This document shows, piece by piece, positions 24,513-29,134 of a stretch of 64,000 nt of DNA; within the stretch, counting starts at the first letter, position 1; every line of letters starts with the position of its first letter. The stretch spans positions 1 through 64,000 of the forward strand of contig JAJDBJ010000002.1 in assembly GCA_029261395.1 (NCBI GenBank), written 5' to 3'. A program made the position numbers and the translations under genes. Below the pieces are notes generated by a model. It saw only the letters and a list, made by a program, of their open reading frames with translations, ran no database searches and was not told the DNA's origin. This DNA comes from Nitrospinaceae bacterium (GTDB lineage: Bacteria > Nitrospinota > Nitrospinia > Nitrospinales > Nitrospinaceae).

Positions 24513-26594
24513 GTGTCCACTGTCAAACATACCGATTACTACAAAGCTCTGGGTATTTCTCCCCAGGCCTCGCCGCGTGAGGTCAAGGAATCTTACCTGG
24601 GTTGGATCCGCCATTTTGATCATCCTCAGGAGCGCCCCAAACCGGGTTCGCTGGAGGGTTCGCTGAACGAGCAGATCGAACAGGTGCAGGAGGCGTTCGA
24701 CCTGCTGTCGGACGATGCCAAGCGCGAGCAATATAACGCGCGGATGAATTTTACTCCCGATTCCGCAGAGTCGCGACCGAACACTGAGATCGCACCGAAC
24801 AAGACTGCTCCCCGTGCGGTGGGCGAGGTGGAGGTGATGATTGCCAAACGGAAGTTGATACGGTCTGATCTGGGTTTTTTCGGATTGAGCGCAAAGCCCT
24901 TTGAACTCTCTCCCAACCCGGAATACTTGTATTTGAGTCCCCGGCACAAGGAAGTGCTGGCTCAGCTGGTGATTGCTCTTCATGAAAATAAGGGCATCGT
25001 GAAAATTATCGGCGCCGCGGGGACCGGCAAAACGACGCTCAGCCGCAGTTTCTTAAGGGAACTGGATTCGGGCATCGATTTGGCCTACATGGTTCATCCC
25101 TGCGACAGCGCGGTGGAATTGCTGCAATCCATCAACGCCGGGTTCAACCTGCCGTCGCACAGCACCAGCAAAAAAGAATTGTTGTTTCATTTGAGGAAGT
25201 TTCTCATCAAAAAGAATGCAGAGAGCCGACGCGTCGCCGTTGTGGTGGACGAGGCGCAGACTCTGACTCCCGGGATGCTCGAAGAACTGCGCATCCTGTC
25301 CAATATTGAAACTGAAAAAGATAAACTACTGCAAATCATTTTGATCGGCCAGCCGGAGTTGAATAAAATTCTGAGCCAACCCTCCCTGGCATCGCTTCAA
25401 CAACGCATCGGCGCCCAGTGGGAACTGCATCCGTTGAACGTCGAAGAAACCCATGCTTATATTCAGCATCGCCTGAATGTCGCGGGCGGCAAGGGCAAGG
25501 TGGCTTTCAGCCGTCCTGCGGCCGATGCCGTGTACTGGGCCTGCGGTGGTTTGCCCCGGCTGATCAACCGCTTCGCCGACCAGGCGCTGGCGGAGGCGCA
25601 TCTTCAGGGAGTGAAAAAGATCGACCGTATTATTATCAGCCGGGTGGAGGAAAAGCTGAAGGACATCCAACCGAAACCCGCGAAGAGCCGATGGGTGCGA
25701 AGGGCGGTCGCTGGTTTTTGGGTGATCGGTGGGCTGGCGGCGATTGTGGTTTATTTTCAAATCCAGTACCCATGGCCCGATCCGGTACCCCAACCGCAAG
25801 ACAGTCTCACGCACATGATTGAACAGAAGCCCCTGAGTTTGTCCCAGCCGGGACAACTGATGCCTCAAGGTTCGCCTCAAACGCGTACTCTGTCTTCGGC
25901 AGGCAACAGTCCAGTCGATGGGTCCGCCACGGAGGAGTCTCAGGTTCCGGTCCAATTTTCCCAGGAAAAAGAGTTGGTCGAGGTATTGTCCACGCTGACC
26001 GCCAGTGAAAGTAAAATCGAAGCCGCGCGGTCGGTGTTAAAAAAGTGGCGTGCCTTCAAAAAGGAAACAGTCACCCTGACGCCGCAGGCGCAAAAAATCC
26101 TGAAAGCCGACTACGGACTTTCCGTCTATGAAACGAGCAGTAACCTGAACCGGTTGACGACGCTCAACTATCCGGCAATGGTGGAGCTCAATCTGCCGGA
26201 CGGCAAAGGCGCGCGTTACCTGGCGTTGGTGGCACTCAAGGGGAATGTCGGAGTGTTTCGCTCCAACGAGACGTTTGAAATTCCGTTGCCGCTGTTTGAA
26301 TCGCTGTGGACGCACAAGGCCTGGGTGCCCTGGAAAAACTTTGAGGAATTGCCCGGCGATATGAAAGCCGGCTACAAAGGCGAGCCCGCTCAATGGTTGC
26401 AACAGCAGTTGAGCCTGCTCGGTTACTACAACAAAGTACCCGACCTCCGATACGGCCGAGGGACTACCGATGCGGTTGCAAAATTCCAACGGTATTACAA
26501 TCTGAAGGACCACGGCCGCCTCGACACCGAAACCCAAATGATCCTCTACAACCGCCTGCCCTCCTACTCCGCCCCCAAACTCACCGGGGGGTAA
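24513..26594 (+). CDS. ExeA/GspA-type secretion ATPase with N-terminal degenerate J-domain and peptidoglycan-binding end
   Basis: With the GTG at 24513, six bases after GGAGAG, the protein has about 693 residues. An ATG at 24477 would add 12 without a ribosome site. Residues about 7-80 resemble a DnaJ domain (DYYKALGISPQASPREVKESY, then AFDLLSDDAKREQYN), but the HPD triad is absent (FDHPQ). The AAA ATPase follows, with FGLSAKPFELSPNPEYLYLS near 123, Walker A GAAGTGKTT near 167, Walker B VAVVVDEAQ near 241 and a Gly-Gly-Leu-Pro arginine-finger region. One membrane span (about 397-417) precedes a C-terminal peptidoglycan-binding repeat (near 625-680). ExeA partners remodel the wall for secretin insertion, so it may serve the PilQ of this genome. 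Confidence 0.88.
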   Translation: MSTVKHTDYYKALGISPQASPREVKESYLGWIRHFDHPQERPKPGSLEGSLNEQIEQVQEAFDLLSDDAKREQYNARMNFTPDSAESRPNTEIAPNKTAPRAVGEVEVMIAKRKLIRSDLGFFGLSAKPFELSPNPEYLYLSPRHKEVLAQLVIALHENKGIVKIIGAAGTGKTTLSRSFLRELDSGIDLAYMVHPCDSAVELLQSINAGFNLPSHSTSKKELLFHLRKFLIKKNAESRRVAVVVDEAQTLTPGMLEELRILSNIETEKDKLLQIILIGQPELNKILSQPSLASLQQRIGAQWELHPLNVEETHAYIQHRLNVAGGKGKVAFSRPAADAVYWACGGLPRLINRFADQALAEAHLQGVKKIDRIIISRVEEKLKDIQPKPAKSRWVRRAVAGFWVIGGLAAIVVYFQIQYPWPDPVPQPQDSLTHMIEQKPLSLSQPGQLMPQGSPQTRTLSSAGNSPVDGSATEESQVPVQFSQEKELVEVLSTLTASESKIEAARSVLKKWRAFKKETVTLTPQAQKILKADYGLSVYETSSNLNRLTTLNYPAMVELNLPDGKGARYLALVALKGNVGVFRSNETFEIPLPLFESLWTHKAWVPWKNFEELPGDMKAGYKGEPAQWLQQQLSLLGYYNKVPDLRYGRGTTDAVAKFQRYYNLKDHGRLDTETQMILYNRLPSYSAPKLTGG

Positions 26595-26623
26595 AAAGGC
26601 TCCATTCACCACAGAAATTTAGC

Positions 26624-26657
26624 TCCCCCTTCAAGAAGGGGGCCGGGGGGATTTGGC
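26624..26657. repeat. family B hairpin at the edge of the AT-rich pocket
   Basis: CCCCCTTC (26625-26632) and GAAGGGGG (26635-26642) form a perfect 8-bp stem with a two-base loop, followed by CCGGGGGGATTTGG. It lies 23 bases before the end of the leftward HEPN-like gene. Confidence 0.75.
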
Positions 26658-26664
26658 ACCGCAT

Positions 26665-27846
26665 TTAAAGATCCATCCTGATTTGCATATTCTCAGGAGG
26701 CTCTAATGGGAAATTTTGATAATTATGCAAATAATATTTGATTGCCTCCTGAAAATATCTTCTTAATAGAGGCGAAAATTCAGATAATGGTAGTTCAGAT
26801 TCATTTTTGAGGTCGCCATGGGATAATCGGTCCCTGGATTTTTTTACCTTTTTAAAAGTTTCAATATCTTTTAATACAGTTTTACTTTTCAATCCGACAG
26901 CCATAATTGTGAATTTTTGTGTCAAATTCAAACGATTTTTTGGGGGGCACAATTCTCTGGTTGCAATCCAAGGTTCAACTTTAATGTCATCATTGTCATC
27001 TATTGCGTCGTATTCAAAAGTTAAATTTTTCACAACAGGGTCATAAAGTTGGTTGGAAATTTTGTTTGCTAGGATCTCCATTGACAGGAAACCCCACATG
27101 AACTTTTTCCAAGGATCTGCCTCTTTTATGGCAGCTAGATACCAATGTTCTGCAGAATCAAATGATTTATGAATGCCTTCCGGGAGATTGCGAAATTTAT
27201 TTAATAAACTTTCGATAGTTTGGAAATCTAATTCTTCTTTAAGATGACCTATTGAAACTGTGGGAGCATGACCCACAATGTCCCATTGGCTAAAAGGCAT
27301 CTTATCCGGGGTACAAAAAACCTCATCTTCTACAACAATATTTGAAATAAAATCCTCACCAAAAACCAGTAACGCCAATGAAGCCAACCTATCAAGGTGT
27401 ATTTTGCTATATTGATGGAATTGTTCCTTTAACTCAACGGACTTGGTGGTATTCAGCCAAAAATATTGTCGGTCTTTAATAAATTTATCCTCAATCTCAA
27501 TTTCCCTCATAATGACGAAGGTTAAATACCAGTTCCAATCTTCTTTTGAGAATTTGTATTCTGAAGTTTCCAGTGTTTTTCGAATATAGCCATCGAACTT
27601 ATCATGATCATTTCCTCCATTGGCTTGGGTAAACGAAGAATTAGTTATATTTTTTACAAATGCTTTTCTCACCCGGAGGGCTATTTCATAATTTTTTGGA
27701 AACTCTCCTAAGATTATTTCTGAATTTTCGTTTTCTTGAGGGTGATTTGAAATGACAAATGGCTTTGAGAATGGATTTCCCCTTGGTTCCTGGCCATATT
27801 GACTTTTGGAACCGTAGATTCTGTATGATTGTATTGATATTTTCAT
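26665..27846 (-). CDS. HEPN-like protein (first of a tandem pair)
   Basis: The 393-residue soluble protein has an N-terminal domain (about 1-190) of unknown type. Its C-terminal helical domain (about 225-370) includes HWYLAAIKEADPWKKFMWGFLSMEILANK and KKVKKSRDRLSHGDL near 347. There, R-D-R-L-S-H matches the R-x4-H catalytic motif of HEPN ribonucleases and the Apea-like family. The base composition is markedly richer in A and T than its neighbours, with many AAA and TTT runs, suggesting transfer. It lies 27 bases after the second HEPN-like gene and likely shares its transcript. A nuclease or defence role is inference from the motif. Confidence 0.68.
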   Translation of the reverse strand: MKISIQSYRIYGSKSQYGQEPRGNPFSKPFVISNHPQENENSEIILGEFPKNYEIALRVRKAFVKNITNSSFTQANGGNDHDKFDGYIRKTLETSEYKFSKEDWNWYLTFVIMREIEIEDKFIKDRQYFWLNTTKSVELKEQFHQYSKIHLDRLASLALLVFGEDFISNIVVEDEVFCTPDKMPFSQWDIVGHAPTVSIGHLKEELDFQTIESLLNKFRNLPEGIHKSFDSAEHWYLAAIKEADPWKKFMWGFLSMEILANKISNQLYDPVVKNLTFEYDAIDDNDDIKVEPWIATRELCPPKNRLNLTQKFTIMAVGLKSKTVLKDIETFKKVKKSRDRLSHGDLKNESELPLSEFSPLLRRYFQEAIKYYLHNYQNFPLEPPENMQIRMDL

Positions 27847-27873
27847 CGCTTATTTATTTTCCTTCTTTTACCT

Positions 27874-28815
27874 TTACGGTCCAACCTCTAGGAGGTTCGA
27901 TAGCATTACCTCAAGTTGTGCAACTACGGCACTAACATCCTCTCGTGTTGGAAAAGGAATTCCTCCGTGGACCAAGCGACTTCTTATTCCGTAACATTCC
28001 AGGAAGAAGTCTTCAGCAATTTTGTTGTTATAGCTCTTTCCATCGAGTTTCTCCTTAACGAGTCGCTTTCCAGCTTGTATAATTGATTCGCGTTTGAGCA
28101 TACCTAGGCCACTTTTAAGAGCTTCTTTTTCTTCCGGTGTTATGTCATTTGCGGTGCTTGTCGCAGAAATAAGTGACCTAATATGATTTTTTACAGCTGG
28201 CGAGCGTGCCCCTTGTTCAATTAGGGCTTCAAGGCCACTCATCAAGAGTAAGAAACGACTGTCCACAGACTGTTGGAAAAAAGATTGATTAAAAAGCTCC
28301 AGCGCAACCCGTTCCCTATCGGTTAGTGTTTTCGGTTGTCTTAAAGTATATTCGAATGCTTTAAGAAATTTTTCTGCTAGTACCCCTCGAATTCCATTCG
28401 CATTCATTGTTGCGAATTGGAGATTTTCAATTGGTTCATACACTATGAGTCCGTGTACATTATTCAGAGTAGGCCTTCCGGTCTTTCCCTCAATCCATTT
28501 GAGTCCATAATTGGTAAAAAGTGATTTCGGCGCTCGGTCACCAAAATCTGCGCCGATTCGCAATCGCGCAAAAACTCTGGCAAGAGTATTAATATAGAAA
28601 GCGCCAAACTTTCTTGCTTCTTCAGATTTCGACCAACCGCTTCCATTAAGTACGAGGGATTTAGCCTTTTTTATGGTGGTGTCCTTCTCTCCGGCAATTA
28701 ATGAAATATGATGGGTGGGGTCCATATTTGGGAGTTCAAGTTCACGGTGCTCTACGTCTAAAATATTGCTCGGTGGGCAGTTGAAGCGAAAACGGAAGTT
28801 ATAAGTCTTGGCCAT
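27874..28815 (-). CDS. Apea-like HEPN protein (second of a tandem pair)
   Basis: The 313-residue protein has an N-terminal beta-rich part (about 1-150, FRFRFNCPPSNILDVEHREL) and a C-terminal Apea-like HEPN domain. That domain includes RFLLLMSGLEALIEQGARS near 188, NHIRSLISATSTAN near 210 and FFLECYGIRSRLVHGG near 270, with R-S-R-L-V-H giving R-x4-H. The ATG at 28815 has GAGG nine bases upstream; a TTG at 28830 is less likely. It lies upstream of the other HEPN-like gene on the same strand, and both are AT-rich. The pair probably act together, perhaps as RNases or phage-resistance proteins, but no activity is shown. Confidence 0.74.
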   Translation of the reverse strand: MAKTYNFRFRFNCPPSNILDVEHRELELPNMDPTHHISLIAGEKDTTIKKAKSLVLNGSGWSKSEEARKFGAFYINTLARVFARLRIGADFGDRAPKSLFTNYGLKWIEGKTGRPTLNNVHGLIVYEPIENLQFATMNANGIRGVLAEKFLKAFEYTLRQPKTLTDRERVALELFNQSFFQQSVDSRFLLLMSGLEALIEQGARSPAVKNHIRSLISATSTANDITPEEKEALKSGLGMLKRESIIQAGKRLVKEKLDGKSYNNKIAEDFFLECYGIRSRLVHGGIPFPTREDVSAVVAQLEVMLSNLLEVGP

Positions 28816-29134
28816 GTTTGAATTCCTCAATTAATTGAGTAGATCAAACTTAGCAAAGGTTTAAATATTCCGCAAGTCGATTAAAAAGGGTGAATATAAA
28901 TCAGAGGGAGAATAAAGGGTAAACCCAGATTCTTCGCTCCACGTTGTTCCACTCAGAATGACATACCCTACGTATTTGTCATCCTGAGAGTCAGCGAAGG
29001 ATCTATGTTTTCATCGGTGTTTATCTGTGGTTAATCCACTTTTTTATCCTGTGATCCTGTCAGGTTTTTTCTGTGCGCTCAAACGACTTCGGGTAGCCGT
29101 CAACGTTCAGCCAGTCGCTTCCCTCGCTAGAGGG
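28816..29134. repeat. 319-base gap with family A and F repeats
   Basis: No gene is seen. A family A element spans 28927-29004 (AGATTCTTCGCTCC, CTCAGAATGACA, TTGTCATCCTGAG, GCGAAGGATCTATG). It is followed by the family F sequence TCATCGGTGTTTATCTGTGG (about 29011-29030) and a partial GCCGTCAACGTTCAGCC block. The promoter for the leftward HEPN pair must lie between 28816 and about 28920, but no strong match is visible. Confidence 0.7.

Follow-up and report, generated by a model that had tools for sequence, protein, structure and literature searches.

A candidate ApeA-like HEPN ribonuclease gene in an AT-rich insert of a Nitrospinaceae genome

Two adjacent genes with R-x4-H motifs

Two neighbouring genes of a Nitrospinaceae bacterium each encode a protein with an R-x4-H motif, and the question raised by the locus is whether they make up a two-gene HEPN ribonuclease or defence module, or whether one or both have a separate history. 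The window analysed is the whole stretch of 64,000 nucleotides that forms positions 1 to 64,000 of contig JAJDBJ010000002.1. The two genes are as follows.

27874..28815, minus strand: gene A (P0002), 313 aa from its ATG, predicted ApeA-like HEPN protein, upstream gene of the pair
26665..27846, minus strand: gene B (P0001), 393 aa, downstream gene of the pair, matches no family

The initial annotation had described two neighbouring leftward genes spaced by 27 bases, an R-x4-H in each protein, an AT-rich composition unlike that of the flanks and no visible membrane segment, and each of these points was borne out. The gap of 27 bases between two minus-strand genes was confirmed from the ORF list and translations. 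A motif scan found R-x4-H once in each protein, as RSRLVH at residues 278-283 of gene A and as RDRLSH at residues 338-343 of gene B. The G+C content of the two-gene stretch, 38.4% vs 51.6% for the window, is almost the lowest of any 2151-bp segment, and the GC3 values of the pair (0.32 and 0.37) are the lowest of the long ORFs, the others having 0.48-0.73. No convincing membrane segment was found in either protein, the best 19-residue hydropathy values being 1.76 and 1.35. Because R-x4-H also arises in 34% of shuffles, whichever of the two proteins is shuffled, the motif by itself is weak evidence, and therefore gene A and gene B were each tested separately. The stricter form R-[NDSHT]-x3-HG is rare, occurring in 0.2-0.5% of shuffles.

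The insertion site

26595..29105, no strand: insert of about 2.5 kb compared with congeners, with alignment breaks at 26594 and 29105 in G016

In four congeners (G015, G016, G017 and G019) the same two flanking genes, encoding a DnaJ/AAA/peptidoglycan-binding protein and an FG-GAP repeat protein, adjoin across a short spacer that holds neither gene A nor gene B; in G016, 26 bases lie between the alignment ends at the empty site. In a fifth congener, G018, the same spacer carries a different insert of roughly 3 kb and 34% G+C, with genes for a D12 adenine methylase, a ParB_N protein and a 276-aa protein that has an R-x4-H of its own (FRNARNLLDHP). Since it is empty in four congeners and otherwise occupied in the fifth, the spacer is a site at which different AT-rich inserts appear. 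The insert with genes A and B is most likely phage-defence cargo that was acquired horizontally. If this reading is right, different defence-type inserts come and go at this intergenic site in the lineage. The G018 insert (L041, 6852-9481) is possibly a separate defence module.

Repeats lie on both sides of the gene pair.

26617..26663, no strand: left dispersed intergenic repeat, REP-like, with an inverted repeat, at least 15 genome matches
28915..29015, no strand: right dispersed intergenic repeat, REP-like, at least 43 genome matches

The presence of repeats on both sides, which had been pointed out earlier, was thus upheld; that they might be a matched pair bounding a mobile unit was not. 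The left and right repeats are unrelated to each other and are dispersed genome-wide, with 15 and 43 genome matches, and they were rejected as the bounds of a mobile element. Being two unrelated dispersed intergenic elements, they do not define the insert. The larger repeat family, that of 28915-29015, also recurs several times inside the window.

The gene A family

When the gene A protein was compared singly with Pfam, PADLOC, NCBIfam, PDB sequences and phages, nothing above noise was found. A family alignment of 14 members was assembled. Homologs are encoded in another genome of the same order (one), on Arthrobacter and Cytobacillus plasmids, on viral contigs, in Methylococcus, Undibacterium, Desulfobacula, Comamonas and a Rhodobacteraceae MAG, and in three further genomes of the phylum to which the Desulfobacula record belongs. 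Among 399 sampled genomes of Pseudomonadota the only match was to an already known member, and in the second phylum, that of the Desulfobacula record, 4 of 395 genomes matched, one of them already known. The homologs are therefore rare and scattered over phages, plasmids and chromosomes. Weak Pfam matches to FmrO, SPACA7 and RPN2_C, each seen in one family member only, were judged to be noise.

The family is divergent, and only five columns of the 14-member alignment are invariant: E196, S244, Y275, R278 and H283. Were five of the 313 columns invariant by chance, both motif residues would be among them with a probability of about 2 in 10,000. The residue after R278 is S in 13 members and N in one, and the HEPN pattern of R-x4-6-H with a polar residue following the arginine is found in all 14. 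Gene A might instead serve in mobile-element housekeeping, or encode a non-catalytic RNA-binding protein in which R-x4-H is kept for structure and not for cleavage; a rare distribution scattered over phages, plasmids and chromosomes would suit such a role, and some HEPN domains are non-catalytic (PMC3710099). However, that R, H and E never vary in a family otherwise so divergent fits an active site better than a scaffold, and we give this alternative little credence.

Architecture of the gene A protein

An AlphaFold2 model of the gene A protein (pLDDT 80.5) shows a mixed N-terminal domain followed by a helical C-terminal domain.

28378..28815, minus strand: N-terminal alpha/beta domain of gene A, about residues 1-146 (AlphaFold2 model)
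27883..28338, minus strand: C-terminal helical domain of gene A, predicted to be HEPN-like, about residues 160-311 (model, ApeA matches)
28228..28230, minus strand: Glu196 of gene A, invariant acidic residue in 14/14 homologs, aligned to the E of ApeA 'AIESLI'
27967..27984, minus strand: RSRLVH, Arg278 to His283 of gene A, predicted catalytic motif, aligned to Ec2ApeA RNLIVH

The N-terminal domain has predicted strands and one long helix, with block pLDDT values of 78-92 at residues 1-90 and below 50 at residues 95-101 and 117-140; we infer that it is a candidate sensor. The C-terminal domain has model helices at residues 166-178, 184-198, 206-220, 227-239, 245-256, 267-282 and 291-311. Glu196 lies in the helix of residues 184-198, and the motif closes the helix of residues 267-282, with a loop and then the last helix, 291-311, after it. 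HEPN domains have the motif at the end of the helix before the last one and a conserved acidic residue in an earlier helix (PMC3710099), and the gene A model matches this layout. A Foldseek search with the full-length model against the PDB and BFVD viral models gave only noise, with nothing at E <0.001, so the predicted HEPN fold rests on sequence and layout.

Relation of gene A to ApeA

The profile of the 14-member family, run against all PDB sequences, had ApeA proteins as its five best matches, among them Ec2ApeA (E 9.3e-4) and Ec3ApeA (0.33). In these matches the order of the two conserved blocks is preserved, and E, R and H line up. ApeA was missed among the PDB sequences by a narrower 8-member profile. 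The consensus of an 11-member alignment matched the Pfam family HEPN_Apea (PF18739) over model positions 1-122 of 136 at E 7.2e-4, with 20.4 bits against a cut-off of 24.4 bits, and had one other match, at E 4; no gene A profile score clears the curated Pfam cut-off, each lying near threshold. One family member matched HEPN_Apea at E 0.012, which is weak by itself and counts only together with the consensus and PDB profile matches, and another matched PADLOC Cas13-ApeA at 0.042. In a profile-profile comparison with five HEPN_Apea domains gene A gave P 0.002, again with the motif in register. The signals are not uniformly robust: besides the miss of the 8-member profile, the 14-member consensus had no HEPN_Apea match and instead a weak match to HEPN_AbiU2, at an E of 0.05 that is no better than the scores of shuffled or reversed controls against other families. 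These comparisons, together with the model, support the view that the gene A protein is a divergent ApeA-like HEPN protein.

Gene B

26818..26835, minus strand: RDRLSH, Arg338 to His343, HEPN-like motif of gene B

The gene B protein had no match in Pfam, PADLOC, NCBIfam or PDB sequences. Its sole detectable homolog, about 25% identical, is encoded on an Arthrobacter conjugative plasmid near integrase and restriction-modification genes, and retains the R, the H and the next G of the motif as RNKIAHG. Profile comparison of gene B with the ApeA HEPN domain gave P 0.03, the motif being in register. A model made from the single sequence, with no alignment, had a pLDDT of 33 and was unusable. Scans of viral contigs found no gene B, and no homologs were found in the 399 sampled Pseudomonadota genomes. 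Its motif and its one homolog make a HEPN identity for gene B possible.

The profile search of both proteins against HEPN and ApeA models proposed with the initial annotation thus gave near-threshold ApeA matches for some of the gene A family profiles and no Pfam or PDB match for gene B. The HEPN/ApeA-like reading is supported for gene A by the motif invariance, ApeA as the top PDB match, the HEPN_Apea match at E 7e-4 and the model layout; for gene B, with the motif and one 25%-identical homolog, it is unproven.

Neighbourhoods of gene A homologs

The homolog on Arthrobacter plasmid pJ349-116 (L005, 8013-10749) has a Tn3 transposase on one side and, on the other, a SIR2 protein that matches the PADLOC candidate PDC-S25. 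Neighbours of other homologs include a ParDE pair, a DUF2971 protein matching PADLOC PDC-S31, a phage terminase, a tyrosine recombinase and an HSDR_N protein, and a weak SIR2-like gene lies near a homolog at the end of a phage contig. With the window's variable site included, about 8 of the 14 loci have neighbours of defence or mobile type, as a raw count; the other contexts are ordinary or uninformative, and about six homologs have no clear defence gene nearby (L011, L013, L014, L015, L055 and L057). The defence or mobile context suggested earlier is supported by both the insertion site and these neighbours.

Two of the loci have features of their own. On a phage contig (L010, 9992-10531) only the C-terminal half of a gene A homolog is present; by eye, the half-gene ORF overlaps a SnoaL-like frame, with a SIR2-like gene after it, and this may be a truncated or rearranged copy. 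Downstream of the Methylococcus homolog (L011, 11034-11576) is a gene whose 180-aa product weakly matches the WYL domain. WYL domains are ligand-sensing and common near defence genes.

Do genes A and B form a unit?

The pair might be a dedicated two-component heteromer, in which one protein is a HEPN-type RNase and the other its sensor or inhibitor. The shared strand, the 27-base gap, the placement in one AT-rich insert, the low GC3 of both genes and the presence of R-x4-H in each would all accord with this. Against it, none of the eight genomes or records in which gene A has a homolog holds a homolog of gene B, no gene A homolog is present in the single record that has one of gene B, gene B was absent from the 399 Pseudomonadota genomes, and the two proteins have no detectable similarity. 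We therefore regard a dedicated heteromer as unlikely. The bolder form of this idea is a long shot: two unrelated HEPN-type proteins, one an ApeA-like RNase whose compact sensor domain is new and the other from an otherwise almost unknown family, would act jointly as a heteromeric, phage-triggered ribonuclease.

The proposal that the pair is a two-gene system did not hold, since the homologs occur singly, and the comparison of neighbourhoods that was to show whether the pair is kept together across genomes found, in the genomes and records searched, the homologs of each gene without the other gene. The word 'tandem' had been used of the pair; an origin by tandem duplication was rejected, there being no detectable similarity between the proteins. 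With unpaired homologs and dissimilar proteins, the pair has the look of cargo, two genes that were acquired together or adjacently. In sum, to judge from the sequence records, no conserved partnership links gene A with gene B. The Arthrobacter homolog of gene A is on pJ349-116 and that of gene B on pJ337-114, in strains with the same recorded source.

The leader of gene A

28793..28872, minus strand: long imperfect palindrome of 80 bases that covers the gene A start codon and its ribosome-binding site

As RNA, the palindrome has a predicted energy of -26.7 kcal/mol (z -4.7) and could form a hairpin. The hairpin was looked for in the homologs and is not conserved, and the idea of a conserved regulator at the start codon was rejected. 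An Rfam search found no RNA partner at the locus. The hairpin bears on a toxin-antitoxin reading, in which a HEPN toxin encoded by gene A would be held in check by gene B or by the leader hairpin. HEPN domains are common as toxins of such systems (PMC3710099), the hairpin over the gene A start is strong, and one homolog adjoins a ParDE pair. Yet gene A homologs are solitary, with no constant partner, gene B is too rare for a cognate antitoxin, and the hairpin is absent from the homologs, all of which make the toxin-antitoxin reading rather improbable.

Proposed function

On balance, gene A is probably an ApeA-like HEPN RNase borne as horizontally acquired defence cargo, and gene B an optional passenger or accessory. 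The sequence data show the gene layout, the insertion relative to congeners, the conservation of the motif in the family and a distant link of gene A to ApeA; the RNase activity, dimerisation, sensing, phage defence, co-transcription and gene B role that follow are inferred. The C-terminal helical domain of gene A would dimerise, setting R278 and H283, aided by E196, at an RNase site. This metal-independent site would cut RNA of the host or the phage, with tRNA or mRNA the likeliest target. Judged by established HEPN biology, a phage-triggered, metal-independent RNase is the likeliest action of the gene A protein. Cutting would follow the sensing of infection, for which the N-terminal alpha/beta domain would most likely act as sensor or brake, in the role that ApeA gives to its long, beta-rich N-terminus. 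Growth of the infected cell would be stopped, through abortive infection or dormancy. Gene B is probably co-transcribed with gene A and possibly encodes a second HEPN-type protein.

Comparison with known systems

HEPN toxins and Abi proteins (HepT/MntA, AbiF, AbiU2, RnlA and PrrC) have the same R-x4-H at the end of the helix that precedes the last one and a conserved acidic residue in an earlier helix, and their neighbourhoods, like those of the gene A family, are of mobile or defence type (PMC3710099). They differ from gene A, beside which neither an MNT antitoxin nor an ABC ATPase, RnlB or a known non-coding RNA is encoded. The type IX retron (PMC13405049) resembles the present locus in having a HEPN RNase effector and a second protein in one operon. 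It differs in its reverse transcriptase, ncRNA and winged-helix gene, none of which is at the gene A/B locus, and in a HEPN domain without the canonical motif (PMC13405049), whereas gene A has R-x4-H.

The closest likeness is to the anti-phage HEPN protein ApeA; that deoxydinucleotides activate it is what a preprint cited in PMC13405049 states in its title. In ApeA (PDB 9hxb and 9hxj) the HEPN domain is C-terminal, as is the predicted one of gene A, and its E, R and H align with those of gene A. ApeA, as is the gene A family in most genomes, is encoded by a single gene. ApeA is larger, 593 aa vs 313 aa, and gene A stays below the ApeA family cut-offs. The N-terminal domain of ApeA is long and beta-rich (PMC3710099), with about 300 residues that are mostly beta, whereas that of gene A is modelled as a compact alpha/beta domain of ~145-150 residues, so that gene A lacks a long beta domain of the ApeA type. 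If the ApeA-like reading of gene A is right, the family would be a compact, single-gene branch of ApeA-like HEPN ribonucleases that PADLOC 2.0.0, Pfam and NCBIfam miss. Sensing and cleavage in ApeA would then be easier to tell apart, with a small relative at hand that has no large beta-rich domain.
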